Source: Hymenobacter caeli (lineage in GTDB: Bacteria; Bacteroidota; Bacteroidia; Cytophagales; Hymenobacteraceae). From it: a stretch of DNA of 64,000 nucleotides. The notes under the pieces are model-generated. The model had not been told where the DNA came from. It saw nothing but the letters and a program-made list of their open reading frames with translations, and ran no database searches. Made by a program: the position numbers and the translations under genes. The stretch lies in contig NZ_JABSNP010000004.1 in assembly GCF_013294115.1 (NCBI RefSeq), positions 124,001 to 188,000 on the forward strand, written 5' to 3'. Shown piece by piece: positions 681 to 25,347 of the stretch (position 1 is the stretch's first letter; every line of letters starts with the position of its first letter).

Positions 681-1877
681 TTAATGCAGCAGGGCCCCGA
701 GCTGCGCCACCAGCACGGGCACGCTCAGGGCCCCCATGATGGCCACCACCGCCCAGCCGGCGGCCAGCATCCAGCGGGGGTGGCGGTAGGGGCCCATGAG
801 GCGGGGGCGGGTGGCGGCCACCAGCACGATGCCCAGCGCGATGGGCAAAATCAGCCCGTTCACGGCCCCGGCCAGCACCAGCAGCTGCGCGGGCTTGCCG
901 ACGAGCACGAAAATACCCGTTGAGAGCACGATAAAAACCGAGATGCAGGCCCGCTCGTGGCGGGCGAAAACGGGGTGGAACGTCTTGAAAAACGACACCG
1001 ACGTGTAGGCCGCGCCCACCACCGACGAGATGGCCGCGCTCCACAGAATGACGCCGAAAATGCGGAAACCTACTTCGCCCGCCGCCGAGCGGAACACGCC
1101 CGCCGCGGGGTTGTCAGCGTCGAGCACGGCCCCGCGGCTGAGCACGCCCACGATGGCCAGGAACAGCACGAACCGCATGACCGTGGAAATAACAATGCCG
1201 CTGACGGCGCTGCGCGTCACCGCATCCTGTTGAGCCGGCCCCTTAATGCCCGCATCAAGCAGCCGGTGGGCCCCCGAAAACGTGATGTAGCCGCCCACCG
1301 TGCCGCCCACGATGGTGACGATGGCCGCCGCGCTGACGTGGGCCGGCAGCAGCGTGTGGTGCAGCGCCAGCAGCAGGGGCGGGTGCGCGCTGAAGGCAAT
1401 GCCGAGCGTGAGCAGAATTTTGACCGTGCCGAGGATTTTGGTGAAGCCGTCGAGCATTTTGCCGATTTCCTGCACCCAAAACAGGGTCAGGGCCACCGCG
1501 CAGCTCGCCAGGGCCCCGTGCGCGTAGCTCATGCCCGTGAGCACGTTCAGGCCCAGCCCGCAGCCGGCAATGTTGGCAATGTTGAAGGCGAAGCCGCCCA
1601 GGATAACCAGGGCCGCCAGCCCGTAGCCCAGCCCCGGCAGCAGTCGGTTGGCCAGGTCCTGGGCCCGCAACTCGCTCACGGTAAGGATTCGCCAGGTATT
1701 GAGCTGGGCCCCCACGTCGAGCACCACCGACACCAGAATCACGAACCCGAAGCTGGTGAGCAGCTGCTGGGTGAACACCGTCGTCTGCGTCAGAAACCCC
1801 GGCCCGATGGACGAGTTGGCCATCAGAAACGCCGCCCCCAGGCTGGCCCCGCCGAACCACCGCTTGCCCGCCCCCAT
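681..1877 (-). CDS. NRAMP-family transporter of the 5-oxoprolinase operon (YcsG-like)
   Basis: A membrane protein of 398 residues with about ten or eleven hydrophobic segments and an NRAMP-like first helix containing GPGFLTQ. It is the last gene of the pxpB-pxpC-pxpA operon. Its ATG shares one base with the pxpA stop (TGATG), which argues for this start and for translational coupling. Bacillus subtilis has the same pairing (ycsF, ycsG, kipI, kipA). The metal-binding DPGN motif of true Nramp metal carriers is not visible: the first helix reads SIGPGF instead. The substrate is therefore unlikely to be Mn2+ or Fe2+. Import of 5-oxoproline or a related compound is a context inference. Confidence 0.8.
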   Translation of the reverse strand: MGAGKRWFGGASLGAAFLMANSSIGPGFLTQTTVFTQQLLTSFGFVILVSVVLDVGAQLNTWRILTVSELRAQDLANRLLPGLGYGLAALVILGGFAFNIANIAGCGLGLNVLTGMSYAHGALASCAVALTLFWVQEIGKMLDGFTKILGTVKILLTLGIAFSAHPPLLLALHHTLLPAHVSAAAIVTIVGGTVGGYITFSGAHRLLDAGIKGPAQQDAVTRSAVSGIVISTVMRFVLFLAIVGVLSRGAVLDADNPAAGVFRSAAGEVGFRIFGVILWSAAISSVVGAAYTSVSFFKTFHPVFARHERACISVFIVLSTGIFVLVGKPAQLLVLAGAVNGLILPIALGIVLVAATRPRLMGPYRHPRWMLAAGWAVVAIMGALSVPVLVAQLGALLH

Positions 1878-2650
1878 CAGCGCGCGCCGCTGAAATCGGC
1901 CCCCAGGCGCACCCCCGCCTCGCGCAGGGCCCCGTGCAGCCGCTGGGCAAATTCCACGGCGTGGGCCCCGTCGCCGTGCAGGCACACCGTATCGGCCCGG
2001 ATGGCCACGTCGGGGCCCTGCTGGCTGCGCACCTGGCCCGTGCGCACCATCCGCAGCACCTGGGCCACGGCCGCGTCGGCGTCGGTTACCAGGGCGTCGG
2101 GCTGGCGGCGCGGGGTGAGGGTACCGTTGGCCTGGTAGGTGCGGTCGGCGAATACTTCGTGGGCGGTTTTCAGGCCCAGCCGCTCGCCGGCCCGGGTTAA
2201 TTCGCTGCCCGCCAGGCCGTAGAGCACCAGCTCGGGCTGCACCCGGTGCACGGCTTCGGCAATGGCCTGGGCGAGGGCGGCGTTGGTGGCGGCCATGTTG
2301 TAGAGGGCCCCGTGGGGCTTGAGGTGGTGCAGCCGCCCGCCCTCGGCCCGGGCCACGGCCCCCAGGGCCCCCAGCTGGTAGACCACCATGTCAAAGGCCT
2401 CTTCGGGCGAAATATCCATATTACGCCGCCCAAACCCCACCAAATCGGGCAGCCCCGGGTGCACCCCCAGGGCCACGTGGTGGCTGAGCGCGGCGCGCAC
2501 GGTTTGCCGCATCACGCCCGGGTCGCCGGCGTGGAAGCCGCAGGCAATGTTGGCCGACGTGACGAAGGGCAGCACGGCCGCGTCCTGGCCCAGGGTCCAG
2601 GCCCCGAAGCTCTCGCCCATGTCGCAGTTCAGGTCAACGGAGTACGTCAT
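1877..2650 (-). CDS. pxpA: 5-oxoprolinase subunit A (LamB/YcsF family)
   Basis: This 257-residue protein carries the family signature at its N-terminus ([14 protein letters not shown]), followed by [12 protein letters not shown] and the GVHPGLPD segment, and is of normal family length. With PxpB and PxpC it forms the ATP-dependent prokaryotic 5-oxoprolinase, which opens 5-oxoproline (pyroglutamate) to glutamate in the cytoplasm. It lies downstream of pxpC across a 66-base gap that contains a palindrome, and overlaps the transporter start by one base. No deviation from the family is apparent. Confidence 0.93.
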
Positions 2651-2679
2651 TGAAACAAAGTGAAAAGAACGCCAACTAA

Positions 2680-2718
2680 AAAACGGTCATGCGGAGCGCA
2701 GCGGAGCATGACCGTTTT
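2680..2718. repeat. Palindromic element between pxpC and pxpA
   Basis: The 13-base arms AAAACGGTCATGC and GCATGACCGTTTT flank GGAGCGCAGCGGA. The right arm overlaps the pxpC stop codon. The core (GTCATGC, then GAGCGCAGCGGA) recurs in the palindrome at 47430-47556, so this is a member of a dispersed repeat family. In the operon mRNA it would form a stem-loop between pxpC and pxpA and could protect or attenuate the message. Confidence 0.7.
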
Positions 2719-3721
2719 ACTTGCTTCCACCCAATGCTTTGAAAGCAATGGCCCCCGGCAACGCCCTGATGGCGCGCTCCTGCGCAAGGTACAGCGCCTG
2801 GGCCTCGGCCAGTGAAACTTCCTGAAAGCGCAGCGCCTGGCCCGGCCGTGCCTGCGCCAGGGCCCCAAAATCGGCGGTGATGACCTGCGCCAGGCGTGGG
2901 TAGCCGCCGGTGGTTTGGCGGTCGGCGAGCAGCACGATGGCCTGGCCGTCGGCCGGCACCTGCACGGTGCCGAAGGTGACGGCACTCGACAGCAACTCGG
3001 TTGCCGTCAGCCGGGCCAGGTCCGGGCCTTGCAGCCGGTAGCCCATGCGGTCGGCCGCCGCCGTCACCACAAACGGCTGCTGCCAGAAGGCCTGCTGGCT
3101 GCCGGCCGAAAACTGCTCGTATTCCGGCCCGCGCACGGCGCGGACGACGGGGTGCGGCCGGGGCACGGGGCAGAGCCGGGGCCCCACCGTCCAGCGGGCC
3201 TGGGCCCACCGGCTGCCCGCCAGCGCCTGGCCCAGGCGCTGGCCCACCGCGCTGGGGGCCCCCACGGGCAGCTCGTCGCCGGCCCGCAGCGCCCGGCCGT
3301 GCAGCCCGCCCAGGCCGGCGCGCAGGTAGGTGGCGCGGCTGCCCAGCACCGGGGCCACGGCCAGGCCGCCCGCCACCGCCAGGTAGGCCCGGCCGCCCGC
3401 CACGGGGGCCCCAAAGGCCAGCTCCGCGCCGGCCGGGGCCCACACGGGCCGGTTCATTTCCACCGGCTGGCCGTCGAGGGTGGGCGAGAGGCGCGCGCCC
3501 GTGAGCGCAAACAGGTGGCCGGCGGCGAAGCGCAGGCGGGGGCCCTGGAGAGTAATTTCCAGGCCCGCCGCGCCGTCGGCGTTGCCCACCAGCAGGTTGG
3601 CCACGCGCAGGGCCGGGGCATCCATTGCGCCGCCCACCACCATGCCGATGTGCTGGTAGCCGGGCCGGCCCAGGTCTTGCACGGTGGTGAGCAGGCCGGG
3701 GCGCAAAATACTAAGGCTCAT
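2717..3721 (-). CDS. pxpC: 5-oxoprolinase subunit C (KipA/biotin-dependent carboxyltransferase-like)
   Basis: A protein of 334 residues starting [19 protein letters not shown], the usual opening of the KipA/AHS2 family. The conserved [17 protein letters not shown], the GPEYEQF segment and the DRMGYRLQG segment follow in order. It is the third subunit of the ATP-dependent 5-oxoprolinase. The chosen ATG overlaps the end of pxpB by 11 bases, which is typical of this gene pair; in-frame sequence upstream of it is only the shadow of pxpB. Confidence 0.92.
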
Positions 3722-4448
3722 GCTGCTGGGTGCGGGCGTACTCCGCCGCGCTGACGGGCACGAAGCGCAAGGTTTGGCCCGCGTGCAGCCGGCTGGGGCC
3801 GGCCCAGGCGGGGTTGAACAACTGGAGCGGCGTGCGGCCGATGAGCTGCCAGCCGCCGGGCGTGGGCAAGGAGTAGATGCCGGTTTGGGCCCCCGCGATG
3901 CCCACCGCGCCGGCCGGCACCAGCGGGCGCGGCCGGGCCTTGCGGGGCGTGGCCAGGCCCGCGTCCAGCCCGCCCAAGTAGGGGAAGCCGGGCGCGAAGC
4001 CAACCATGTACACCAGGTAGTCGGGGGCGGTGTGCCGGGCAATTACCTCGGCGGCCGAGAGGCCGGTGTGGCGGGCCACGAAGGCCAAATCCGGTCCAAA
4101 TTCTCCACCATAACAGACCGGGATTTCCACCGAATCGGCGGCGGTGGCGGCGGCTGGGGGCCCTGCGGCGGGTAGCATTTCGCGCAGCGTCTGCGCCACT
4201 GTTTCGTACGGTTGGTGCCGGCCGCCGGCGCTCACCAGCCACGGGTCGTAGTACACGGTGAGGGTGGTGAAGGCGGGCACGCATTCGCGCAGGCCCACGA
4301 ACGGGTGCGCCGCCAGGTAGGCGTCGAACGCCTGAACGGCGCGGTGCGTGGCCGGGCTGATGCCCGCGCCGAACTGCACCACCATGGCCGCGTCGCCCAG
4401 CGGAAACAACTGCACGGGCAGCGCGGGCGGCGGACAGGCTTGGTTCAT
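3711..4448 (-). CDS. pxpB: 5-oxoprolinase subunit B (KipI/allophanate hydrolase subunit 1-like)
   Basis: This 245-residue protein has the KipI/AHS1 order: an N-terminal [13 protein letters not shown] strand, the [17 protein letters not shown] segment, the [17 protein letters not shown] signature, then GSIP-like and [10 protein letters not shown] motifs (here [14 protein letters not shown] and [10 protein letters not shown]). It is the first gene of the operon. I chose the ATG at 4448 because homology begins just after it. KipI of Bacillus also inhibits the sporulation kinase KinA, but with pxpA and pxpC present the enzymatic role is the one to expect. Confidence 0.92.
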
Positions 4449-4546
4449 GCGGGGGGCTGGGCGACCACCTGGCCGGCCCGTAAACATAGCGGGAGTGGAG
4501 CCGTGGTGCCCCGCCCCCGGTTGCGGCTGCTGCCGAAAGGGCAATT

Positions 4547-4981
4547 TTAGGGTTTGGTCAGCGTGCCGTCGGCGTTGAAAAGCACGTCCTGGGCCCGGCC
4601 GTTTTTGGTTACTTCGGCCTCGTACACGGTGGCCCCATCGGCCCGCACGATGGCGGCCGCTTCGTTGATTTTGTGGGTGCGGTAGCTGCGGGCCAGGGCG
4701 GCGCGCACGGCGGCCGGCAGCTGGGCGGGTGCTACGCCGGTTTCGGTTTCCAGCAGTTTCCCGGCGGGGGTGATGACGGCCGACATCGTTCGGCCGTTCA
4801 TTTTAAAGCCGGCCTCGTAGTTGCCGCCTTCCTGCTCCCAGGTGGTGGCCCGCACGGTCGGAAACCTGGCTTTGAACGTGGCGCGGGCCGCGGCGGGTAC
4901 CCGGGCGGAGGGCAGCCTTTGGGCGCGGGCCGGGCCAGCGGCCGCCAGCGCCATGGCGGCGGCAATCAACAGAGGCTTCAT
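4547..4981 (-). CDS. PepSY-like secreted protein
   Basis: A 144-residue protein with a signal peptide cleaved near ARA|Q. The body has two weak repeats of a strand-rich unit: a helix with [14 protein letters not shown] followed by a W-x-Q-E-G-x-Y-E-A-x-F strand, then [10 protein letters not shown] followed by a second EAEVTKNG strand. This is the layout of the Bacteroidota PepSY-like/DUF2874 (beta-lactamase-inhibitor-like) family, which is periplasmic and of unclear function. It is transcribed in the same direction as the oxoprolinase operon but ends 98 bases before pxpB and is probably independent of it. Confidence 0.7.
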
Positions 4982-5293
4982 GGGCAGTTAGGGGCAAATA
5001 AATGAAAATACTCCCGAAGCTATTGCCTGATGTTGTGGATTCTCTGTGGTTTAGGTAAACATCGCACCTCCTGGTGGGTCATTCAGCGGGCCGGCCGGAT
5101 AACGTCCTGAAGCCGCCCCAATCAGGCGGGTTTTAACCCCATTAAGTTATTGACTACCCTCGAATAAGTTATTGACTACCCTCGAAATAATCAACCGGTA
5201 CGGGGCCACTGCCCGCCGAAAAATTGCACGCAGCCCGGACGCGGGGATTGTGTCTTTATAGCCAGATAGCCATCACCTTTCATTTCCCAAACA
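4982..5293. other. Divergent intergenic region with a 22-bp tandem repeat
   Basis: A 312-base gap lies between two divergent secreted-protein genes, so it should hold both promoters. The only structure I see is a perfect tandem duplication of a 22-base AT-rich unit, TAAGTTATTGACTACCCTCG plus AA, at 5143-5164 and 5165-5186. Two identical abutting 22-mers correspond to two helical turns each and could be a paired regulator site; a simple slippage duplication is equally possible. Confidence 0.6.
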
Positions 5294-5539
5294 ATGAAAA
5301 TTGCCCTAACCCTACTGGTTGGCCTGGCCTTGGTGAGCCTGCGGCTCCCCGCCCGTGCCCAAACGGCCCCGGCCGCCGGGCCCCGCCCCAAAGTGACCGG
5401 CGCGGCCGCCCGCGAGCCTGGCGCGTACCAGGGCCCGCACGTGGTGAAAGATACCAAGGCATTGGGCCAGAAGTTCATCCAGCACAGCCGCCCCACCGAC
5501 GGCCCCGTATCGGCCAAGGTTCTGCCCCGTCCAAAATAG
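5294..5539 (+). CDS. Small secreted protein of unknown function
   Basis: An 81-residue protein with a Sec signal peptide (cleavage near ARA|Q, residue 23) and a short charged mature part of about 58 residues, without cysteines or obvious repeats. I recognise no family. The start codon follows an AT-rich upstream stretch. It converges on the GH3 gene, whose stop lies 16 bases away, so no spacer remains for a separate terminator. Confidence 0.5.
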   Translation: MKIALTLLVGLALVSLRLPARAQTAPAAGPRPKVTGAAAREPGAYQGPHVVKDTKALGQKFIQHSRPTDGPVSAKVLPRPK

Positions 5540-5554
5540 GGCCCCGCCGGGCCT

Positions 5555-7879
5555 CTATTGCGTGAGCATGAACGAGGCCATCTGCACGTCGCGCGAGTTG
5601 CTGCCCACCATCACCTGGAACTCGCCGGGCTCGGCCACGAACTTCAGGTCGTTGTTGTAGAACTTCAAATCCTCCACCGTGAGGTGGAAGGTGAGCGTGC
5701 GGCTTTCGCCCTTTTTTAGCAGCACTTTCTGGAAGTTTTTCAGCTCCTGCACCGGGCGGGTGCTGGTGCCTACCACGTCGCGCAGGTACAGCTGCACCAC
5801 TTCTTCGCCGTCGGCGGGGCCGGTGTTTTGCACGGTGGCCGTCACGTCGAGGGCCCCGGCCATGCCGATGCTGGCGGCGCTGAGCGTGGGTCTGGATACG
5901 CTGAACGTGGTGTAGCTCAGGCCGTAGCCGAAGGGGTAAAGCGGGTCGTTGGGGATGTCGAGGTAGCGCGACTTGTACTTGTCGAGCTTGACGCCGGCGT
6001 AGGGGCGGCCGGTGCTTTTGTGGTTGTAGTAAATCGGAATCTGGCCCACCGCCCGCGGGAAGGTGGCCGTGAGCTTGCCGGACGGATTGTAGGCCCCGAA
6101 CAGCACGTCGGCCACGGCGTGGCCGCCCTGCGTGCCCGAAAACCAGGTTTCGAGGATGGCGTCGGCGTTTTGGTCTTCCCAGGGCAGCGTCAGGGGGCGG
6201 CCGTTCATGAGCACCACCACCAGGGGCTTGCCGGTGGCTTTCAGGGCCTTGAGCAGGTCGAGCTGGCGGCCGGGCAGGCCTATGTCGGCGCGGCTGGCGG
6301 CCTCGCCGGTCATGCCCTGGCTTTCGCCCACCACGGCCACCACCACGTCGGCGCTCTGGGCGGCGGCCACGGCTTCGGCAATCAGGGATTCGGGGGCCCT
6401 GGTATCAATGTTCAGCTCGCCGCCGTGGGCGTTCAGGCGGTCAATCATCTGCGGGTCGTCGGCCACGTTGGCGCCCTGGGCCATTACGATTTTCACGCCC
6501 GGGGCGGCGGCCCGCAGGCCCTGCTCCACCGACACGGCCTGCTTCCAGTCGCCGGCCCCGCTCCAGCTCCCGATCATGTCGCGCTGGCGGTTGGCCAGGG
6601 GCCCCACCAGGGCAATGGTGCCGGTCTTTTTGAGGGGCAGCGTCTGCTTGTCGTTTTTGAGCAGCACGAAGCTGCGGCGGGCCACGTCGCGCGCGTCGGC
6701 CAGGTAGGCGGGCTTCATCAGCGTGGCCTTGGCGCGCTTCTCGCTCACGCCGTGGTAGGGGTCGGTGAAGAGGCCGAGGCGGTACTTGGCTTCCAGCACG
6801 CGGCGGCAGGCCAGGTCGATGTCGGCCTGGGCCACGGTGCCGTCGGCCAGGTTCTTCGCCAGGTTGTTGAGGAAAATCTCGCCCACCATGTCCTGGTCGA
6901 TGCCCGCCTTCAGCGCCAGCTCCGATACCTTTTTGTCGTCGCCCAGGCCGTGGGCCTCCAACTCGTTAATAGCAGTGTAGTCGGTGGCCACGAAGCCCCG
7001 GAAGCCCCACTGCGTGCGTAGCAAGTCGGTCATCAGGAACTTGTTGGCCGTGGCCGGGATGCCGTTCACGTCGTTGAACGACGACATCACCGAGCCCACG
7101 CCGGCCTCCACGGCCGCCTTGTAGGGCGGCAGGTACTCGTTGTACATGCGCTGGAGGCTCATGTCGGTCGTGTTGTAGTCGCGCCCGGCCTCGGCGGCCC
7201 CGTACAGGGCGAAGTGCTTGAGGCAGGCCATCACGCGGTTGGGCCGGGTCAGGTCGTTGTCGGGGCCCTGGTAGCCGCGCACCATGGCCCGGGCAATCTG
7301 CGACCCCAGGTAGGGGTCTTCGCCGCTGCCCTCCATGATGCGGCCCCAGCGCGGGTCGCGGGCAATGTCCACCATCGGCGAGTACACCCAGTTCACGCCG
7401 TCGGCGCTGGCCTCGTCGGCGGCAATGCGGGCGGTTTTCTCCATGGCCGGCAGGTCCCACGACGCGGCCAGGCCCAGCGGTACCGGGAAAATGGTGCGGT
7501 GCCCGTGAATCACGTCGTAGCCCAGCAGCAGCGGGATGTGCAGCCGCGACTCCTTGACGGCCAGGGCCTGGAGCTTGCGGGCCGCCACCGGGGTGTAGGT
7601 GTTCAGCACGGCCCCCACGCGGCCCTTGCGGATGTTGGCGTCCACGTCCTTGCTCACCACGGGCCCCGTCACGTCGAAGCCCACGGACACGAGGTTGAGC
7701 TGGCCAATCTTCTCCTCGGGCGTCATCTTGCCCAACAGGTTATCGATGAAGGCCGTCATTTTAGCGTCGGGCGCGGGCAGCGCGGTTTGGGGCGCGGCGG
7801 CTTGCTGGGCCGCCGCCGGCAGGGCCCCCAGCGCGAGCAGCAGTAGGGCGGCGCGCAGGGTACGGGTGGGGTGGGTCAT
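5555..7879 (-). CDS. GH3 beta-glucosidase (BglX-like), periplasmic
   Basis: A protein of 774 residues with a signal peptide (MTHPTRT to PAAAQQ). It has the GH3 N-terminal barrel (GYDVIHGHRTIFPVPLG, then SPMVDIARDPRWGRIMEG), the nucleophile segment FVATDYTAI with Asp at about residue 300, the GH3 C-terminal sandwich (VVAVVGESQGMTGEAASRADI) and a fibronectin-III-like tail (YPFGYGLSYTTF). It should remove glucose from the ends of beta-linked gluco-oligosaccharides. Being last in a SusC-SusD-GH144-GH3 row, it most likely acts on beta-1,2-linked oligosaccharides in the periplasm. The same enzyme pairing is known from Bacteroides thetaiotaomicron (BT_3567). The start at 7879 is chosen because the signal peptide begins there; the open frame upstream is palindrome sequence. 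Confidence 0.9.
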   Translation of the reverse strand: MTHPTRTLRAALLLLALGALPAAAQQAAAPQTALPAPDAKMTAFIDNLLGKMTPEEKIGQLNLVSVGFDVTGPVVSKDVDANIRKGRVGAVLNTYTPVAARKLQALAVKESRLHIPLLLGYDVIHGHRTIFPVPLGLAASWDLPAMEKTARIAADEASADGVNWVYSPMVDIARDPRWGRIMEGSGEDPYLGSQIARAMVRGYQGPDNDLTRPNRVMACLKHFALYGAAEAGRDYNTTDMSLQRMYNEYLPPYKAAVEAGVGSVMSSFNDVNGIPATANKFLMTDLLRTQWGFRGFVATDYTAINELEAHGLGDDKKVSELALKAGIDQDMVGEIFLNNLAKNLADGTVAQADIDLACRRVLEAKYRLGLFTDPYHGVSEKRAKATLMKPAYLADARDVARRSFVLLKNDKQTLPLKKTGTIALVGPLANRQRDMIGSWSGAGDWKQAVSVEQGLRAAAPGVKIVMAQGANVADDPQMIDRLNAHGGELNIDTRAPESLIAEAVAAAQSADVVVAVVGESQGMTGEAASRADIGLPGRQLDLLKALKATGKPLVVVLMNGRPLTLPWEDQNADAILETWFSGTQGGHAVADVLFGAYNPSGKLTATFPRAVGQIPIYYNHKSTGRPYAGVKLDKYKSRYLDIPNDPLYPFGYGLSYTTFSVSRPTLSAASIGMAGALDVTATVQNTGPADGEEVVQLYLRDVVGTSTRPVQELKNFQKVLLKKGESRTLTFHLTVEDLKFYNNDLKFVAEPGEFQVMVGSNSRDVQMASFMLTQ

Positions 7880-7920
7880 GAGAAGGAAAAGGGAAAAGAA
7901 TTGGTAGAAGGGCGGGGTGG

Positions 7921-8050
7921 GGCGGGGTGGTCCGGCGACTTTTTCAGTCGTCGGGCCACTCTTATCCGTGAACGGTTGACGATTGAACAGCGGTTTCGGG
8001 GCGTTGTAAGAGTGGTCCGACGACTGAAAAAGTCGCCGGACCACCCCGCC
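7921..8050. repeat. Long palindrome, family A (44-bp arms), between GH144 and GH3
   Basis: The left arm at 7921-7964 and the right arm at 8007-8050 match at 43 of 44 positions; the one difference is a G:T that would still pair in RNA. The loop is 42 bases. Each arm holds a smaller hairpin (CGACT-TTTTC-AGTCG). The outer GGTGGTCCGGCGA and inner TCGTCGGGCCACTCT blocks recur exactly in the palindrome at 44167-44285. The element fills most of the 222-base gap between the two glycosidase genes. Confidence 0.9.
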
Positions 8051-8101
8051 GCCCCACCGCCCCACCGCGCCCCGCGCCACCCCGTGCCGGCGCGAAATTG
8101 C

Positions 8102-17400: not shown

Positions 17401-17472
17401 TGGCCCCGGCGAGAATCGAACTCACATCTAAAGTTTAGGAAACCCTTGTTCTATCCGTTGAACTACGGGGCC
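17401..17472 (-). tRNA. tRNA-Arg (anticodon CCT)
   Basis: Read on the minus strand, the acceptor GGCCCCG pairs with CGGGGCC. The D-arm is GTTC/GAAC, the anticodon arm AGGGT-TTCCTAA-ACTTT with anticodon CCT, and the T-arm GTGAG-TTCGATT-CTCGC. The discriminator is A and CCA is encoded directly after it (17400-17398). The anticodon stem contains G-T wobble pairs. It decodes AGG. Confidence 0.95.
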
Positions 17473-17510: not shown

Positions 17511-18824
17511 TTACGACTTATACACCAGCACAATGCCGAAGGAGAGCACCGTGAGGATGAGGCCCACCATGAAGATGGAGTAGCTTTTGCGCAGCAGGCC
17601 GTACTTGCGGGCCAGCACCTCGCCGAGGTAGTACACGTCGGTGACCATGTTGGTGTAGAGGGCGTCTTTCTCGCGCATCAGCTCGCGCATGCCGGCCTGG
17701 AAGTTGTCGAGGCTGAGCTTGGTGAAGTTGCCGAAGAACAGGAGGTTGACGCGGCGGTTGCTGGCAATTTCGGGACTTTTCTTGAGCCACTTGAAGCTCG
17801 TCACGTCGGGCTGGGCCGAGAGGATGGCCGTTACCACCGAGCCCAGCGAGGTGAGCAGCAGGATGCCCATCGGCACGGCCAGCATGGGGTTGCGGGTGAA
17901 GGAGGGCCCCAGGGCCGAGCTTTTGGCCCCCAGGTAGGTGATGATGACCGAGAGCAGCACGGCGTTGAGCGAAATCATCATGCTCGCCTTTTTGTCGGCC
18001 ATGTCGCTCAGCTTCATGTGGTTGCCGTACATGGTCCGAAACATGGTTTCGATGCCGCGCTTGGGCTCGGCGAAGGTTTCGGTTTTGGCCTCGGCGCGCT
18101 TTTTGGTCTTTTTCTCAATCTTTTTAAGCTCCTTCCGCTGCTCCTTTTTGTTGGCTTTGAAGTCTTTGCCGTAGCGCTCTTTGCCGGCCTCGGAGCGAAA
18201 CTTGTGGCCCCGCATGAATTCGAGCTGCAGCTCGGCCCAGTCCTCGCTGGCGTAGGTTTTGCCCAGGGCCACCTCCCACTCGGTGCGCAGCAGCTCGGCG
18301 CTGGCGCGGAAGTCGTCGCGGGCCAGGTTGCTCAGGTCGGCGTCCACGAGCAGCTTTTGCAGCTCGGTGTCGGCCGGCTCGTCGCGGTGGGTGGCCCGGA
18401 TGAGGTCCTGCACCAGCTGGCGGCGGGCGGCGGGCACGTTTTGGGTGGCCAGCCAGGCGTCGGCCCGCTCCATGGAGCGGTACTCGTGGCCGTCGTACAC
18501 GTCGAGGTAGCCGGTGTCGTGGAACCAGGCGGCCACCAGCAGGGCCTCGGTGTCGGGGGCGTCGAGGGCGGCGGCGGCGGCCAGGGCCCGGGCCTCCTTG
18601 GCCACGGCGGCGGTGTGGCGCAGCGTGTGGTAGGTGAGGGTGGCGGGCAGCTGGGTTTCGAGCAGGGGCGTGACGTAGGCCTGCGCGGCCTTGGCCAGGG
18701 CCGAAGGCTCGGGCTTGGGGGCCTTAGCGGCTTTGGGGGCTTTGGCGGGCAAGGCCGGGTCGGGGCCGGCCGCCGGGGCCGGCGCGGCGGCCGGGGGCGA
18801 AGCCGGAAGGGGGGAAATATCCAT
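17511..18824 (-). CDS. HD-domain protein fused to a Pycsar-effector-like membrane domain (DUF5706)
   Basis: A 437-residue protein. Residues 1-45 form an Ala/Pro/Lys linker. Residues about 50-170 are an HD phosphohydrolase-like domain with candidate metal ligands in LTYHTLRHT (H70), AWFHDTGY (H102, D103) and LVDADLSNL (D161/D163). A very basic coiled stretch covers about 215-255. Then comes a DUF5706-like module: KLSDMADKKASMMISLNAVLLSVII (first membrane helix), a second helix at about 315-335, and a final helix at 413-433. DUF5706-type modules are the membrane-disrupting effectors (PycTM) of Pycsar defence, which respond to cyclic nucleotides. Here the HD domain, a fold that often hydrolyses nucleotides, is on the same chain, and no cyclase gene lies nearby. 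A housekeeping role is also possible. The start at 18824 omits an unconserved upstream frame. Confidence 0.78.
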   Translation of the reverse strand: MDISPLPASPPAAAPAPAAGPDPALPAKAPKAAKAPKPEPSALAKAAQAYVTPLLETQLPATLTYHTLRHTAAVAKEARALAAAAALDAPDTEALLVAAWFHDTGYLDVYDGHEYRSMERADAWLATQNVPAARRQLVQDLIRATHRDEPADTELQKLLVDADLSNLARDDFRASAELLRTEWEVALGKTYASEDWAELQLEFMRGHKFRSEAGKERYGKDFKANKKEQRKELKKIEKKTKKRAEAKTETFAEPKRGIETMFRTMYGNHMKLSDMADKKASMMISLNAVLLSVIITYLGAKSSALGPSFTRNPMLAVPMGILLLTSLGSVVTAILSAQPDVTSFKWLKKSPEIASNRRVNLLFFGNFTKLSLDNFQAGMRELMREKDALYTNMVTDVYYLGEVLARKYGLLRKSYSIFMVGLILTVLSFGIVLVYKS

Positions 18825-18920
18825 GCGGGGGCGGGACGAAAGGGCCGCGCAACTGCTTTCAACGCAAACGCGGGCGGGCAAGTTAAACCCGCCGGCCCGG
18901 CCAACGTGCCCCGGCCCGGT

Positions 18921-18928
18921 TAGTTTTG
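18921..18928 (+). promoter_or_regulatory. -7 promoter box for the large metallophosphoesterase gene
   Basis: TAGTTTTG matches the Bacteroidota -7 consensus TAnnTTTG. It lies 54 bases before the start codon of the plus-strand gene and just upstream of the divergent HD gene. No convincing -33 element is visible. Confidence 0.4.
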
Positions 18929-18982
18929 CGGAACCCCGGTCCGGGGCGGCCTTTAAATAGTTATTTTGCCATATATTCTTCG

Positions 18983-21900
18983 ATGAAGACATTTTTCCGC
19001 TTCATTATTCTGCTCGGCCTGCTCGCCGCCCGCCCGGCCCCGGTGCGGGCCCAGCTGGAAGAGATTGGCGAGGCCGGCGAGTCGCCCGACAACCCGCTGC
19101 ACCCCAAGCCCAACTACCGCCGCGCCGGCCGCGCCTGGAAAAACACCCCGCTGCCCGACTCCAGCCACCTTACCTACTCCGTGTTCCTGATTGGCGACGT
19201 GGGCAACCCCGTGCTGCCGGCCAACGGCGGCGAGCCTTCGCTCAACTTCCTGCACCGGCAGATTCTGCGGGCCGGGGCCCGGAGCACCACCGTGTTTCTC
19301 GGCGACAACATTTACAACCAGGGCATGCCGCCGGTGGGGGCCGTGGACCGCAAAACGGCCGAGGGCCGCATCACCGCCCAGCTTGATATTTTGAAGGGCT
19401 ACCGGGGCGAGAAGTACATGACGCCCGGCAACCACGACTGGATCCAGGGCACCCGCAACGGCCTGGCCCAGGTGAACCGCGAGCAGGAGTTCACGGAAAA
19501 CTACCTTAAGCAGGACTCGACCAAGTTTGCCTACACCGGCGACTTCTGGCTGCCGCGCGACGGCTGCCCGGGGCCCTACGAGGTGCGGGTGCAGGACAAC
19601 CTGGTGCTGATTTTCCTGAACTCGCAGTGGTTCCTGACGCCGCCCGAGTTCCGGGCCGCCAACGGCTTCTGCGGCATCGCCACCGACGCCGACATCTACG
19701 CCGAGGTGGACGACATCATCGCCCGCAACCAGGACAAGCACATCATGGTGATTGCCCACCACCCGCTGTACTCCGACGGCGTGCACGGCGGCTACTTCAC
19801 CTTTGCCGACCACTTGTTTCCGCTCAGCATCGTGTTCAAGTACGCCTTCGTGCCGCTGCCCGTCATCGGCTCGATTTACCCGCTGGCCCGCAAGTACGGC
19901 GGCATCAGCCAGGACCTGGCCTACCCGGCCTACCAGGCGTACAAAAAGGCCCTGACCACGATTTTTGACAAATACCCCAACGTGGTGTACTCCAACGGGC
20001 ACGAGCACAACCTTCAGTACTTCAAGGAGGGCAACACGAGCTACATCACCAGCGGCTCGGGCTGCAAAACCCAGCACGTGAAGCCCGGCCGCGCCGGCGG
20101 GGCCCTGTTTTCGGACAAGGAAAAGGGCTTCGCCCGGGTGAACTACTACGACAACGGCCAAGTGTGGGCCGAGTTCATCGTGCCCGACGGCAAGGGCGAA
20201 ACCGCCCACCAGGTGTACCGCACCCTGATGTACACCCGCGCCGACCGGGGCGTGGTGGCCGCGGCCGCCGGCAAGTCGGGCAAGAAGAAAAAGAAGAAGA
20301 AAAAGGACGACGACGACCAGTCCGAAGCGCCCGTGGCCGGCCTGCCCGCCCAGCGGCCCGACTTCGGCCGCGACAGCCTGCGCACGCTGGCCGTGAACCC
20401 GGCCTACAACCGCCACGGCAAGTTCCACGACTGGCTGCTGGGCCGGCACTACCGCGCAGAGTGGGCCACGCCGGTGGCCTTCCGGGTGCTGGACATCGCC
20501 ACCGAAAAAGGGGGCCTGACGCCCTACAAAACCGGCGGCGGCAAGCAAACCGCCTCCCTGAAATTGCGCAACGAGGCCGGCCACGGCTTCACGCTGCGCA
20601 CGATTGACAAAGACCCCGCCGCGGTGCTGCCCGAGGCCCTGCGCACCGGCCTGGCCAAGGCCGTGCTGCAAGACCAGGTGTCGGCCCAGCACCCCTACGC
20701 CTCGTTTGCGCTGCCGCCGCTGGGCACGGCGGCCGGCATCCTGCACACCAACCCGGTGCCGCGCTACATCCCCGCCGACCCGCTGCTGGGCCAGTACTAC
20801 CGGCAGTTTGCCAACACGCCGGTGGCCCTGGAAGAGGACGTGAAGGACAGCCAGAGCAACGTAGCCAGCCTCGACTTCGCCACGAAGCTGGTGGACACCG
20901 ACAAGATGCTGGAAAAGCTGCTCGACGACAACGACAACCGCGTGGACGGGGTGGCCTTTGCCCGCTCGCGCCTGTTTGATATGTGGATTGGCGACTGGGA
21001 CCGCCACGAGGACCAGTGGCGCTGGAGCGAGCAGAAGGGCGCGGACGGGGCCCGCACCTACGTGGCCGTGCCCAAGGACCGCGACATCGCCTTTTTTAAG
21101 GGCGACGGGGTGCTGCCCTACCTCAGCAGCCGCAAGTTCGCGGTGCGCAACTTCCAAAACTTCGGCTACGACTACGCCGACTACAAGGGCCTGAACCAGA
21201 CGGCCCTGAGCAACGACCGTACTTTTCTGGGGGGCGTGAGCCGGGCGCAGTGGGTGGAGCAGGCCGAGTACCTGAAGGCCCATTTGACGGATGAGGTCAT
21301 CGAGAAAGCCTTCAAAGACCGGTGGCCGGCCCAGATTTACGCCCTGCACGGGGCCGAAATCGTGGCCAAGCTCAAGAGCCGCCGGGCCCTGCTGCCCGAC
21401 GTGGCCGGCAAGTACGCCGACCTGCTGGCCGACATCGTGGAAGTGCGCGGCACGAAGAAGAACGAGAAGTTCACGGTGGACCGCCGGCCCGACGGCACCA
21501 CCCGCGTGACGGTGGAGAAAATCAGCAAGAAGGGCAAGCTGAGCACGATTTACGACCGCACGCTCGACGTGAGAATCACCGACGAGCTGCGCCTCTACGG
21601 CATCGCCGGGCAGGACGTATTTGAGGTGCGCGGCGACGTGCAGAACGCCATTAAGCTGCGCATCATCGGCGGCACGGGGCGCGACTCCATCATCGACCGC
21701 TCGCACGTGGCCGGCATCCGCCACCGCACCCAGGTGTACGACGCCGACACCGGCAACGTGGTGCTGACCGGCTCCGAGGCCCGCCTGCGCCTGGAGCCGG
21801 GCGTGGACGTGAGCCGCTACGACCACCCCAAGCGCTTCGACCTCAAGGACTACCGCCTGAACTACACCGGCCCGGCCGTGTTCTTCGGCTACAACATCGA

Positions 21901-22966
21901 CGACGGCCTGCTGCTGGGCGGCGGCGTCACGCACCGGCGCTACGGCTTCCGGCGCGACCCCTTCGGCTCGGAGCAAACCCTGACGGCCAACTTCGCCCCG
22001 GCCCGCGAGGCCTACAACCTGCGCTACACCGGCCAGTTCACCCGCGTGTTCGGGCACGTCGACCTGCACGTGGCGGCCCAGTTCTACGGCCCCCAGCTGC
22101 TCTACAATTTCTTCGGCCTGGGCAACGACACGCGCAACCTCGCGGTGCGCCCCCCCGACCAGCCCCGGGCCACCAACTACACCGTCAACAACTCGTACCG
22201 GGTGCGCTTCAACCGCTTCTCCGTGGCCCCCACCTTCGAGCGGCACATCCTGAACTTCATCAAGGTGGGCGTGGGGCCCCAGTACGAGCAGTTCCGGGTC
22301 GAAACCGACCCCATTGGCAAGGTGATTCAGGACAGCATCGGGCCCGGCAACGAAAACCGCCGCTTCGGCGTGCGCTCCTCTGACTTCAAATCCAACGAGT
22401 ACCTCGGGGGCCTGTTCTACTTCAACATCGACGCCGTGGACGCCGACAAGGACACGCGCATCGGCCTGCGCTGGCACAACGAGGCCCAGTACAACTTCCA
22501 GCTCAACAGCGAGAAGCTGACCTACGGCCGTCTCAGCTCGGAAATCAGCGCCTACCTCACGCCCAGCTTCCCCTTCCGCATCACCTACGCCGGGCGCGTG
22601 GGCGTGCAGCACAACCTGGGCGACTACCGCTTCTACCAGGCCAACACGCTGGGCGGCACCACCAACCTGCGCGGCTACCGCCGCACCCGCTACGCCGGCC
22701 GCACGTCCCTCTATGGCAACTTCGAGGCCCGCCTGCAGCTCTTTAGCTTCAACGCTTACCTATTTCCCGGCACGCTCGGCGTCCTGGGCCTGGCCGACGC
22801 GGGCCGCGTGTACTCCGACGCGGACGTGCGCCGGGGCCTCGACGCCTTCCACACCGGCTTCGGCGGCGGCGTGTACGTGGGCATTCTCAAGCAGGCTATC
22901 ATCAACGTGACCTACTCGGTGGGGGAGGAGAAGCTGGTGTTCGTGGGGTTTAATTTTTTGTTTTAG
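18983..22966 (+). CDS. Giant metallophosphoesterase / kinase-like / outer-membrane barrel protein
   Basis: A 1327-residue protein with a signal peptide (MKTFFRFIILL to VRAQ). Residues about 55-400 form a calcineurin-like phosphoesterase with all motif blocks: GDVGN, GDNIYNQG, GNHDW, AHHPLY and NGHEHN. A Lys8-Asp4 linker lies at about 433-446. Residues about 470-870 form an uncharacterised domain with LFDMWIGDWDRHEDQW (DRH at 673-675) and, about 25 residues later, VPKDRDIAFF (D699, D701). This spacing recalls the DRHxxN and metal-binding Asp of HipA/Fam20-type kinases. The rest is an Omp85/BamA-like 16-strand-type barrel ending GFNFLF. It should sit in the outer membrane with its enzymatic part in the periplasm or outside. 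The start is placed at the signal peptide. Confidence 0.8.
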   Translation: MKTFFRFIILLGLLAARPAPVRAQLEEIGEAGESPDNPLHPKPNYRRAGRAWKNTPLPDSSHLTYSVFLIGDVGNPVLPANGGEPSLNFLHRQILRAGARSTTVFLGDNIYNQGMPPVGAVDRKTAEGRITAQLDILKGYRGEKYMTPGNHDWIQGTRNGLAQVNREQEFTENYLKQDSTKFAYTGDFWLPRDGCPGPYEVRVQDNLVLIFLNSQWFLTPPEFRAANGFCGIATDADIYAEVDDIIARNQDKHIMVIAHHPLYSDGVHGGYFTFADHLFPLSIVFKYAFVPLPVIGSIYPLARKYGGISQDLAYPAYQAYKKALTTIFDKYPNVVYSNGHEHNLQYFKEGNTSYITSGSGCKTQHVKPGRAGGALFSDKEKGFARVNYYDNGQVWAEFIVPDGKGETAHQVYRTLMYTRADRGVVAAAAGKSGKKKKKKKKDDDDQSEAPVAGLPAQRPDFGRDSLRTLAVNPAYNRHGKFHDWLLGRHYRAEWATPVAFRVLDIATEKGGLTPYKTGGGKQTASLKLRNEAGHGFTLRTIDKDPAAVLPEALRTGLAKAVLQDQVSAQHPYASFALPPLGTAAGILHTNPVPRYIPADPLLGQYYRQFANTPVALEEDVKDSQSNVASLDFATKLVDTDKMLEKLLDDNDNRVDGVAFARSRLFDMWIGDWDRHEDQWRWSEQKGADGARTYVAVPKDRDIAFFKGDGVLPYLSSRKFAVRNFQNFGYDYADYKGLNQTALSNDRTFLGGVSRAQWVEQAEYLKAHLTDEVIEKAFKDRWPAQIYALHGAEIVAKLKSRRALLPDVAGKYADLLADIVEVRGTKKNEKFTVDRRPDGTTRVTVEKISKKGKLSTIYDRTLDVRITDELRLYGIAGQDVFEVRGDVQNAIKLRIIGGTGRDSIIDRSHVAGIRHRTQVYDADTGNVVLTGSEARLRLEPGVDVSRYDHPKRFDLKDYRLNYTGPAVFFGYNIDDGLLLGGGVTHRRYGFRRDPFGSEQTLTANFAPAREAYNLRYTGQFTRVFGHVDLHVAAQFYGPQLLYNFFGLGNDTRNLAVRPPDQPRATNYTVNNSYRVRFNRFSVAPTFERHILNFIKVGVGPQYEQFRVETDPIGKVIQDSIGPGNENRRFGVRSSDFKSNEYLGGLFYFNIDAVDADKDTRIGLRWHNEAQYNFQLNSEKLTYGRLSSEISAYLTPSFPFRITYAGRVGVQHNLGDYRFYQANTLGGTTNLRGYRRTRYAGRTSLYGNFEARLQLFSFNAYLFPGTLGVLGLADAGRVYSDADVRRGLDAFHTGFGGGVYVGILKQAIINVTYSVGEEKLVFVGFNFLF

Positions 22967-22989
22967 GGCCCCCAGCAGTTTCAGCAAGA

Positions 22990-23024
22990 AGCCCCGGCTG
23001 CCAGTGTGGCGGCCGGGGCTTTTT
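22990..23024 (+). terminator. Rho-independent terminator
   Basis: AGCCCCGGCTGCC pairs with GGCGGCCGGGGCT, followed by TTTTT. It is 24 bases downstream of the large barrel gene and ends its transcription. Confidence 0.85.
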
Positions 23025-23043
23025 GCGGGCACTGCCGGGTCCC

Positions 23044-23979
23044 TCAAGCCTGAAAGATATTGCTGTTATGGTATTCCAAATAAAGTGCCGATGGTTTGTT
23101 ATTGACTGCCCTTGGTAATATCAGCAGGTCTTTTCCGTGGTACTGGTAATACTCTTTGCCATTATCAAATTCTTCGCGAATACGCTTGCTGACTTCAACC
23201 TTGAAATCAGGTGTTATTGTGAGGTAGCCTTCGTCAAATAGCTTGTGCATATCGGAGCGTAGCAATAGCCCATTAGTGGTCAGGTTTGGCCCCGCTGAAG
23301 CATAGGGCCTGATGTGCGCTGCTTCCAATACGGGCAATGTTTTCTCACCAGTTATGGCGCACCGCTTCGCATAGGCATCGGTCACCGAAAGCCGGAAAGC
23401 ACCCTGACCAATGCGCACTTTGCGTAAAACCGATTCCCCGTACTGCGGAGTGTCTTCGGCAACCACGAAGGCGTTGCTGCTGGTAGTCGGAACATTGGTA
23501 AGATAATTTGCTACCGTTGCTTCCAGTCGCTGCCATAAAGCGGCACCAACACTGTCCTGCGTGTTGTACGTTTTGCCCTGCACAATGCTATTGCTCCAGT
23601 TAGTGGGAGCTGGTATCCAGTCCTCCTCTCTAAAAAATACTGGATTAGTAAGCGCGATGCAGCCAATTAAAGGGTTGCGGTCTGCATCGCCTCGGTACTG
23701 CTGAATAGCAGTCCGAAACTGCTCCAGGGTATCAAACCCGTTACGGCTCTGAAAAGTATTCCAGGCCAACGAGAGGGGCAGTTGGCTTTGGGCCGCAAAA
23801 AAGCCCATTCCGCCAATTGTATTGTGAGGGCTTTTTAGCTTGAATAAGAAGGGGCCACCTGGTTCTAAAACCCGAAAAGCTGTTTGCCCACCGGGCCGCC
23901 AGAAGTTTACATCTTCTGGCGTGCGGCCACTCAAATAATTATACCATCGCCAATCGGTAGCGCCGAGATAATATTTCAT
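23044..23979 (-). CDS. HNH endonuclease
   Basis: A 311-residue protein. The C-terminal third carries an HNH_2-like domain: KRCAITGEKTLPVLEAAHIRPY, then NGLLLRSDMHKLFDEGYLTI, with His, Asn and His in the usual places. The N-terminal two thirds (YYLGATDWRWYNYL and GPFLFKLKSP) are typical of stand-alone bacterial HNH proteins linked with DNA restriction. Its GC content is clearly below that of the neighbours and its codon use is less biased, which suggests acquisition. It lies between the large barrel gene and a decayed DUF1016 nuclease. The start at 23979 is chosen because a conserved-looking MKYYLG opening begins there. Confidence 0.85.
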   Translation of the reverse strand: MKYYLGATDWRWYNYLSGRTPEDVNFWRPGGQTAFRVLEPGGPFLFKLKSPHNTIGGMGFFAAQSQLPLSLAWNTFQSRNGFDTLEQFRTAIQQYRGDADRNPLIGCIALTNPVFFREEDWIPAPTNWSNSIVQGKTYNTQDSVGAALWQRLEATVANYLTNVPTTSSNAFVVAEDTPQYGESVLRKVRIGQGAFRLSVTDAYAKRCAITGEKTLPVLEAAHIRPYASAGPNLTTNGLLLRSDMHKLFDEGYLTITPDFKVEVSKRIREEFDNGKEYYQYHGKDLLILPRAVNNKPSALYLEYHNSNIFQA

Positions 23980-23996
23980 AGCCTGCAAGTTAGTCT

Positions 23997-24040
23997 CGCT
24001 ACCCCCGCCGCGCCCGCCGCTCAAACAGCGGCTGGTTCAC
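23997..24040. repeat. 44-bp direct repeat, copy 1
   Basis: This stretch matches 25143-25186 at 41 of 44 positions in the same orientation (shared core GCTCAAACAGCGGCTGGTTC). The two copies bracket the decayed DUF1016 gene. On the minus strand both could be read as the tail of a coding region, VNQPLFE followed by a stop. Confidence 0.85.
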
Positions 24041-24048
24041 GGCACCAT

Positions 24049-25080
24049 TTACCCCCGCAGCGCGGCCGTCACGGCATCGAGGCGGAGCACCAGCTCCTCG
24101 TTGCTGGGGAAGAAGGGGCGGAGCTCGGCGGGCAGCGTGTCGGTGAGGGAGTAGGTGGCCACGCCGATGGGCTTTTGCACGTCGCGCAGGGCAAACTCGA
24201 CCACGGTGCGCTGCTTGCTCTGGCAAATAATGATGCCGATGCTGGGCTGCTCGTGCGGCTTGCGCACCGTCTCGTTCAGCAGCGAGAGGTAGAAGTTCAC
24301 CTTGCCCGCGTACTCGGGCCGGAACTCAGTTACTTTCAACTCCACGGCTACGAGGCATTGCAGCTCGCGGTGAAAAAGCAGCAGGTCGATAAAATACTCC
24401 TGCCCTTCCAGCTCCAGCCGGTACTGGTTGCCGATAAAGGTGAAGTCGCCGCCCATCTCAATCAAAAAGCGGCGCACGTTGCCGAGCAGGGCCTGTTCCA
24501 GCTCGTGCTCGGAGTGCTCGGGCGCCAGGGCCAGGAAGCCGAAGGTGTACTCGTCGCGCAGGGCCAGGGTAGCGGCGGGCAGCTGCGCTGGTGGCAGGGT
24601 AGCAGCAAAATTCTGTTGGGCCAGCACCGTGTTGTCGTAAGCGCGGGCGCGGATTTGCTGCTCCAATACGGCTTTGGTCCAGCTGTTATTTCTGGTCTGC
24701 GTCAGGTAATAAAGCCGCTCTGCGGAAGTCTTGCACTTCTCGAAAATCAGCACATTATGAGTCCAGCTAATTTCTCGCACCAATGGTGCGAGAAATTCAT
24801 CAGCCCGGTATTCCAGAAAAAACGAGCGCATTCGCCACAAGTTGGAAGCGGAAAATCCACTTACGCCCACAAACTCCATCTGCAGGTCGCGGGCCAGGGT
24901 TTCGACCACGCTTTTGCCCCAGCCGTGCTGCTGCTGGCGCTCGGCAATAAGGCGGCCCAGGTCCTAGTAAAGCTGGATTTGCTGCTGGTTCACCTGCTGC
25001 AAGGCGCGGTACTGCGCCTCGCGCACGCGCTGCTTCACGGCCAGTAGCAGGGTGGAATAGTCGGCAGGCGTGGGCTGCAT
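24049..25080 (-). pseudogene. DUF1016 (YhcG-like) PDDEXK nuclease interrupted by an amber codon
   Basis: Read from the ATG at 25080, the first 38 codons give MQPTPADYSTLLL to QQQIQLY. A TAG follows at 24964-24966, then the frame continues without shift as DLGRLIAERQQQHGWGKSVVETLA and runs to 24049. The DUF1016 family normally has Trp at this point (LYWxIG), so a single G-to-A change turned TGG into TAG. The remainder is intact: the N-terminal DUF1016_N region and a PDDEXK nuclease domain (FIDLLLFHRELQCLVAVELKVTEFRPEYAGKVNFYL). A shortened product from GTG at 24909 (286 residues) would keep the nuclease domain. A sequencing error cannot be excluded. Confidence 0.88.
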
Positions 25081-25229: not shown

Positions 25230-25347
25230 CCGGCTTCGGCGGCGGCGTGTACGTGGACGTGCTCAAGCAAGCCGTGGTGAACGTGACCTACTCGGTGGGC
25301 GAGGAAAAGCTGGTGTTCGTCGGGTTCGATTTCCTGTTTTGGGGCCC
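25230..25347 (+). pseudogene. C-terminal remnant of a second large barrel protein
   Basis: The translation FGGGVYVDVLKQAVVNVTYSVGEEKLVFVGFDFLF closely matches the last 35 residues of the large metallophosphoesterase-barrel protein (22860-22966), but nothing upstream remains. The stop codon of the intact gene (TAG) is TGG here, so the frame runs on. The DNA identity extends a few bases past the stop. The gap from 25081 to 25538 otherwise holds only the direct repeat and AT-rich DNA with a repeated ATACGATTTTAAT word near 25420. Confidence 0.85.

Follow-up and report, generated by a model that had tools for sequence, protein, structure and literature searches.

A predicted kinase-fold domain between a phosphoesterase and an Omp85-type barrel in an exported protein family of Bacteroidota

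The window, a 64,000-nucleotide stretch of a Hymenobacter caeli contig, encodes a three-part protein of 1327 amino acids at 18983-22966 on the forward strand (+), in a complete open reading frame with zero internal stops. The protein joins a calcineurin-like phosphoesterase, a middle domain with a predicted kinase fold and a C-terminal Omp85-type barrel. The reading favoured here, at a probability of roughly 60%, is that of an exported outer-membrane protein (signal peptide, phosphoesterase, kinase-fold domain, all-beta linker and Omp85 barrel without POTRA) in which an outer-membrane-tethered periplasmic kinase and phosphoesterase would act on an envelope substrate and be linked to an inner-membrane HD-PycTM partner. 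The computed evidence consists of the folds predicted for the middle domain and for the barrel, the conservation of active-site residues, three domain architectures and the conserved HD-PycTM neighbour. The three-part layout had been proposed in an initial annotation, together with a HipA/Fam20-type kinase in the middle, and it was borne out by the intact reading frame, a Pfam match over cut-off for PF00149 and a predicted Omp85-type fold for the barrel.

The middle domain was modelled with AlphaFold 2 over residues 460-960 from 79 homologs found in genome contigs, with a mean predicted local distance difference test score (pLDDT) of 90 and a predicted template modelling score (pTM) of 0.91. 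The model was aligned structurally with VIA-align to 999 PDB chains pre-ranked by Foldseek, and the best 50 were considered. All 50 are kinase-fold enzymes, with Z-scores of 10.6-15.1, and the aligner's own reference for a typical best Z without a clear match is 7 to 8 (14 if mostly helical). The top match was PI4KII-beta (Z 15.1, 253 aligned residues, 4.3 Å), and others included CotH (Z 14.9, 256 aligned, 4.1 Å), CtkA (Z 13.7, 236 aligned, 4.7 Å), VPS34 (Z 11.6), HipA (Z 11.4) and Fam20 (Z 10.6); a few match titles, such as 'MDT protein', were presumed by us to denote HipA. Foldseek's own ranking placed Rio2 first and JAK2 pseudokinase domains next, with four matches at E ≤0.001. The matched range, about 40-357 in the model, corresponds to protein residues 499-816, a domain of about 320 residues at 20477-21430 (+). 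On this model, the middle domain is predicted to adopt a two-lobe kinase fold of the HipA/CotH/PI4KII/Fam20 group, in agreement with the initial annotation, which had compared the motif order with that of HipA/Fam20-type kinases. The best structural matches comprise both lipid kinases and protein kinases and so do not single out one substrate class.

Conservation was scored in 138 domain sequences taken from a search of 296 genomes of the phylum, with the motif playing no part in their collection. A second set of 80 loci from genome contigs was seeded on the pattern WDRHx[DG]QW and was hence excluded from the kinase-motif counts. The catalytic-loop motif DWDRHEDQW (residues 671-679, 20993-21019, +), whose register with HipA is described below, keeps D671 in 135, D673 in 127, R674 in 133 and H675 in 123 of the 138 domains, and the putative metal-binding motif DRD (residues 699-701, 21077-21085, +) keeps D699 in 128 and D701 in 126 of 137. 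The near-invariant K543 (132/135; 20609-20611, +) is, with R539, a candidate for the ATP-site lysine. E617 is kept in 130/135 domains. A glycine-rich stretch at 510-520, within the putative glycine-rich loop GGLTPYKTGGGKQ (residues 510-522, 20510-20548, +), is also conserved. The position equivalent to the HipA asparagine is a glutamine in 127/138 domains. The K543/D673/D701 core is intact in 79/81 proteins of the three-part type, 30/42 with kinase and barrel and 12/15 stand-alone kinase domains. The motif numbering of the initial annotation (D673-R-H-E-D-Q-W679 and D699-R-D701) is correct, and DRH and DRD, whose lack of conservation it had named as refuting, are conserved in these motif-independent homologs; the other refuting condition, a fold without two kinase lobes, is likewise contradicted by the model. 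A chance motif is rejected, since DRH and DRD are conserved, a kinase fold is predicted and the domain occurs in 111/296 genomes.

Residues 454-885 have zero Pfam or NCBIfam model matches, bar an evident chance NCBIfam match at 858-921 (E 0.15), and searches with the middle domain across an 80-sequence alignment gave at most three members per Pfam family, with a best E of 0.0088 among the 25 of 38 families listed. HipA_C (PF07804), CotH (PF08757) and Fam20C models have no match in the window protein at E ≤5, nor in the domain alone, which matches 0 Pfam families at E ≤1; the PI3/PI4-kinase Pfam model has no match in the window protein, and no CotH match occurs in the window's genome. A phmmer search of the whole protein against PDB returned just weak purple-acid-phosphatase-type and GAP50 matches, in the first domain. 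The sole PDB chain matched by the domain profile at E ≤10 was CtkA (E 0.12), in an alignment that spans the DRH motif. Profile-profile comparison with HipA, using a HipA profile built from 25 loci of the same phylum, scored 29.0-30.6; the highest of 100 column-shuffled controls reached 23.7 and the reversed profile 16.7. This alignment places D673 on the catalytic aspartate of HipA and Q678 on the metal-binding asparagine that follows it. The order of catalytic loop and metal aspartate on which the initial annotation had relied thus fits, with a score above all 100 shuffled controls.

The phosphoesterase lies behind an N-terminal export signal, recognised by inspection at residues 1-24 (ending PVRAQ; 18983-19054, +). 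A signal peptide or lipobox was also found in 76 of the 78 scorable loci among 80 loci with homologs, by a simple hydrophobicity and lipobox rule. PF00149 matches residues 67-276 (19181-19810, +) at 31.2 bits against a cut-off of 21.5, and the stretch contains GDxG, GDN and GNHD motifs. Of 56 three-part sequences, the window's included, drawn from the motif-seeded loci, 51 retain the metal ligand D72, 47 D108, 47 N150 and 50 H151, and each of the cysteines 195 and 230 is present in 55.

A second model, covering residues 817-1327 (pLDDT 88, pTM 0.80), consists of an all-beta linker followed by 16 long strands, a count taken by hand from DSSP elements. The linker (residues about 817-935, 21431-21787, +) occupies the place of POTRA domains, which are typical of Omp85 proteins though missing from some subfamilies; for these the window protein has no Pfam match and the model no counterpart. 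The 16-stranded barrel (residues about 961-1327, 21863-22963, +) carries a conserved LRGY motif; its best structural match is the barrel of TamA (Z 26.7 over 292 aligned residues, 3.0 Å), with further TamA and BamA structures next. Omp85 sequence matches at the C-terminus fall below cut-off (PF01103, E 0.0038; NCBIfam NF047779, E 2.5e-22 at 1050-1327). Omp85 proteins are described as holding their soluble N-terminal part on the periplasmic side, and PlpD, an enzyme-Omp85 fusion, as holding its enzyme domain in the periplasm, a compartment described there as lacking ATP (PMC11116518). Because these N-terminal parts and the PlpD enzyme are periplasmic, the phosphoesterase and kinase domains are both placed, by analogy, in the periplasm and probably not on the surface. 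Surface exposure is disfavoured on the same grounds, and the cell-surface location suggested in the initial annotation is not supported.

Within the phylum, the kinase-type domain is present in 111 of the 296 genomes and in three architectures, assigned by open-frame length: phosphoesterase, kinase and barrel in 81 hits, kinase and barrel in 42, and kinase alone in 15. The window's own genome (4.98 Mb in 45 contigs) encodes a stand-alone paralog (521 amino acids, 39% identity, E 6.3e-72) whose N-terminus is lipobox-like. A midpoint-rooted tree of 135 domains, from which the short sequences L216, L219 and L220 were omitted, places 33/40 kinase-plus-barrel domains on one side and 79/81 three-part domains on the other, and the architecture labels require 11 changes on it versus a shuffled mean of 46.9. 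Two genomes that belong to one family encode kinase, phosphoesterase and barrel separately, in three genes that follow one another on the same strand, at 1838-5793 (-) of locus L230 and 4129-8097 (+) of locus L231. The gaps in L230 are 6 and 14 bases, and Pfam confirms its phosphoesterase and Omp85 parts; the neighbours in both loci look, by inspection, like ABC-2 type transporters. As an independent arrangement of separate adjacent genes, these loci favour the idea that the three parts work together as a unit.

Relatives in genome contigs number at least 587, and the best 80 are all from Bacteroidota, judged by record titles; the closest named ones among these 80 are Hymenobacter, at up to 76% identity across the middle domain. 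Two scans of viral contigs found no relative of the protein, and a virus or phage origin is rejected on that basis. Membership of a defence system is likewise rejected for the three-part protein, which has no PADLOC match at E ≤0.001. Four of five plasmid-borne relatives are recorded as 'hypothetical protein', and the fifth record has no annotation. On a plasmid of Hymenobacter radiodurans (L325, 1915-6562), a gene of three-part length, annotated as 'hypothetical protein', begins about 100 bp after an undecaprenyl-diphosphate phosphatase gene. Stand-alone kinase-domain genes are clustered in two same-genus genomes, with three in L221 (G072) and two in L222 (G166); near those of L002 and L221 lies a gene that resembles topoisomerase IB.

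The divergent neighbour at 17511-18992 (-), whose true start probably lies inside this open reading frame, encodes a predicted inner-membrane protein with PycTM (PF18967, E 1.5e-29, 103 bits against a cut-off of 27.2; also called as PycTM by PADLOC) and HD (PF01966, E 4.9e-5) domains. Among the matches listed, HD/PycTM is matched no farther than 8 kb from 62/81 three-part, 17/42 kinase-plus-barrel and 0/15 stand-alone genes, and chance would yield about 0.4, 0.16 and 0.07, respectively, if genomes of 4 Mb are assumed. The match spans both HD and PycTM in 42 of these 62 three-part cases and in 13 of the 17 kinase-plus-barrel cases. The count used 124 HD/PycTM matches, the strongest ones and one weaker, with 26 weaker listed matches left out, and the 62 three-part genes span 13 family-level groups. 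In the second set of 80 loci, an HD-PycTM homolog stands in the flanks of 43/55 three-part loci and 0/25 others; seven other window neighbours were tested and have no homolog in the flanks of those loci. HD and PycTM are split into separate adjoining genes in some lineages (L299).

PycTM is known from Pycsar defence systems. The genome's one class III cyclase match (PF00211) lies on contig C12 and the window on contig C4, with other cyclase classes not searched, and the idea that a class III cyclase within the window completes a Pycsar pair is rejected on that ground. Many PycTM proteins may lie outside Pycsar defence, since HD/PycTM matches occur in 131/296 genomes of the phylum.

Other genes recur beside the family in 21 inspected loci. 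Since 20 of these loci were picked because HD/PycTM is matched no more than 8 kb away, the 20/21 count is not independent (L310 lies outside the cluster). The recurring genes are an SdiA-regulated or phytase-like propeller protein (13 loci), a SixA-like histidine phosphatase (6), an 800-residue protein without a Pfam match (6), a PPK1-like gene (5) and, in 4 loci, a gene cluster that includes a class III cyclase, with names Pfam-checked on one member each. Phylum-wide, 28 of 44 propeller matches have a kinase-domain gene no more than 8 kb away, on the same strand in 27 of these cases, for a query that itself came from an HD/PycTM-associated neighbourhood. PPK-like genes stand close to the kinase-domain gene in L301, L302, L305, L314 and L317 (Pfam-checked in L301).

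On the reading of a tethered periplasmic kinase and phosphoesterase, the C-terminal barrel would serve as membrane anchor, with the two soluble domains hanging on the periplasmic side. The predicted kinase would transfer phosphate to an envelope lipid, glycan or protein, with D673 as the putative catalytic residue and D701 and Q678 binding metal, and the phosphoesterase would dephosphorylate that substrate or a related one. The module would be coupled to the inner-membrane HD-PycTM protein. A more specific version, a trans-envelope phospho-switch with opposing kinase and phosphatase in the periplasm, a donor other than cytosolic ATP (e.g. polyphosphate or a lipid pyrophosphate) and coupling to an HD-PycTM protein that travels with the family across Bacteroidota, is doubtful.

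Several observations weigh against the favoured reading. The kinase would work in the periplasm, a compartment regarded as devoid of ATP. Foldseek alone gives TM-scores of about 0.2 for the middle domain and modest E-values (best 1.6e-4, for Rio2), the hhalign probability with HipA is just 7%, and the CotH profile score of 16.5 is below its shuffled maximum of 25.7. The K/D/D core is incomplete in 17/138 domains (three of these being short partial matches), and D673 is replaced by Gly or Ser in the same-genus paralogs L117, L119, L148 and L150. Phosphoesterase ligands are missing in some three-part proteins, and for 19/81 three-part genes none of the HD/PycTM matches listed falls within 8 kb on their contig. 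Because D673 is replaced in some paralogs while D671 is kept almost throughout, the identity of the catalytic aspartate is uncertain.

A pseudokinase, in which the middle domain would bind or regulate, sensing nucleotide or another ligand or positioning the phosphoesterase as the only enzyme, is rather unlikely for the family at large. One branch of kinase-plus-barrel proteins (L207, L209, L211 and L215) keeps D671 and D673 and has the DRD motif replaced, with R and Y at 699 and 701, and its members are, judged from these residues, candidate pseudokinases. The replacement of D673 in some paralogs and the loss of the whole DRD in this group indicate that pseudokinase branches exist; 12 of the 17 incomplete cores fall among the 42 kinase-plus-barrel forms, and a periplasm without ATP, as described in PMC11116518, would suit a binding role. 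Against this stand the nearly complete retention of the core in three-part proteins (79/81) and the occurrence of the kinase domain without a phosphoesterase to position in the 42 kinase-plus-barrel and 15 stand-alone forms, two of the latter adjoining a separate phosphoesterase gene. The three-part proteins that have lost phosphoesterase ligands come from motif-chosen loci, and their kept kinase motif is no evidence on this question.

It is unlikely, somewhat more so than a pseudokinase, that the middle domain is active with another chemistry of the kinase fold, for example AMPylation or transfer from polyphosphate, a lipid pyrophosphate or some other donor than ATP. Export to an ATP-poor periplasm would favour such a donor, as would the PPK1-like gene in 5/21 and the SixA-like phosphatase in 6/21 inspected loci, 20 of them chosen via HD/PycTM, and the Hymenobacter plasmid gene beside an undecaprenyl-diphosphate phosphatase. 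Against this, the polyphosphate-kinase domain PF02503 is widespread (267/296 genomes).

Least probable is a protein whose main role is that of an Omp85 factor for assembly or translocation, with phosphoesterase and kinase as accessory regulators of barrel assembly: its barrel is of the BamA/TamA type and protein assembly is, for Heinz et al. (PMC4104836), the most conservative hypothesis for Omp85 subfamilies of unknown function, yet POTRA is absent and the linker all-beta, the kinase domain is also found by itself in exported proteins, and PlpD is described as an Omp85 barrel carrying an enzyme active in its own right.

The surroundings of the gene in the window hold further features. A tRNA gene (Rfam RF00005) lies at 17401-17472 (-), just past the HD-PycTM gene. 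A 118-bp direct repeat with 85.6% identity (22854-22971 and 25230-25347) includes the last approximately 113 bp of the three-part gene, with its copy 2.3 kb downstream. The interval between the two copies holds genes for an HNH endonuclease (23044-24024, -) and for a YhcG-type nuclease (24049-24909, -; PADLOC PDC-S02), an arrangement that resembles the insertion of a nuclease cassette at the gene's 3′ end with duplication of the target. Directly behind the gene, a 69-bp stretch (22971-23039) matches its own reverse complement at 78%, giving a long imperfect hairpin that is perhaps a terminator or part of the cassette insertion.

A description of the middle kinase domain was not found in the open-licence literature that was searched, and the comparisons below point to a new family of envelope proteins within the HipA/CotH/PI4KII/Fam20 fold group, with a domain architecture that is likewise new. 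HipA_C, CotH, Fam20C and PI3_PI4_kinase are grouped in the Pfam PKinase clan (PMC9758233). The window protein shares with HipA and CtkA the predicted kinase fold and a D-x-H loop in register, but it is exported and fused to a barrel, lacks a HipA_C match and has Gln in place of the Asn that follows the HipA loop. With CotH (PF08757), the spore-coat kinase, the likeness is one of fold (4.1 Å over 256 residues); membership by sequence is rejected, as the profile score lies within the shuffled controls and no Pfam CotH match was found. Type II phosphatidylinositol 4-kinases, which are eukaryotic lipid kinases, provide the best structural match, tied within 1 Z unit with CotH, whereas their Pfam model does not match the window protein. 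Fam20 kinases act in the secretory compartment and carry a DRH-type motif, and the predicted fold resembles theirs, but the Fam20C model is likewise without a match.

Well-understood bacterial kinases acting outside the cytoplasm are rare, and we know of none that shares its chain with an outer-membrane barrel. The present family, for which neither Pfam nor NCBIfam has a model and which is found in 111 of the 296 sampled genomes, is predicted to be such a kinase, with kinase and phosphatase paired on one chain in the three-part form. Its frequent proximity to an HD-PycTM gene is a hint of a phosphate switch that would work across the cell envelope.

Among Omp85 proteins, the nearest published description is that of the 'Metallo' subfamily of Omp85/TpsB proteins by Heinz et al. 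in 2014, in which PF00149, there called a metalloprotease, precedes a barrel without POTRA (PMC4104836). By that description, the window protein is alike in its PF00149 domain, its Omp85 barrel and its lack of POTRA; it differs in the kinase-type domain between these parts, and the word 'kinase' occurs 0 times in the main text of that paper. The patatin-Omp85 proteins PlpD and FplA are similar in carrying a periplasmic enzyme fused N-terminal to the barrel, but as described they combine a patatin-like lipase with POTRA, whereas phosphoesterase, kinase and all-beta linker are found here. The PycTM effectors of Pycsar are matched by the PycTM domain of the neighbour, well over the Pfam cut-off, but that domain is fused to HD and the genome's class III cyclase match lies on another contig. 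Through the conserved HD-PycTM linkage, PycTM proteins outside Pycsar systems gain a concrete genomic partner.

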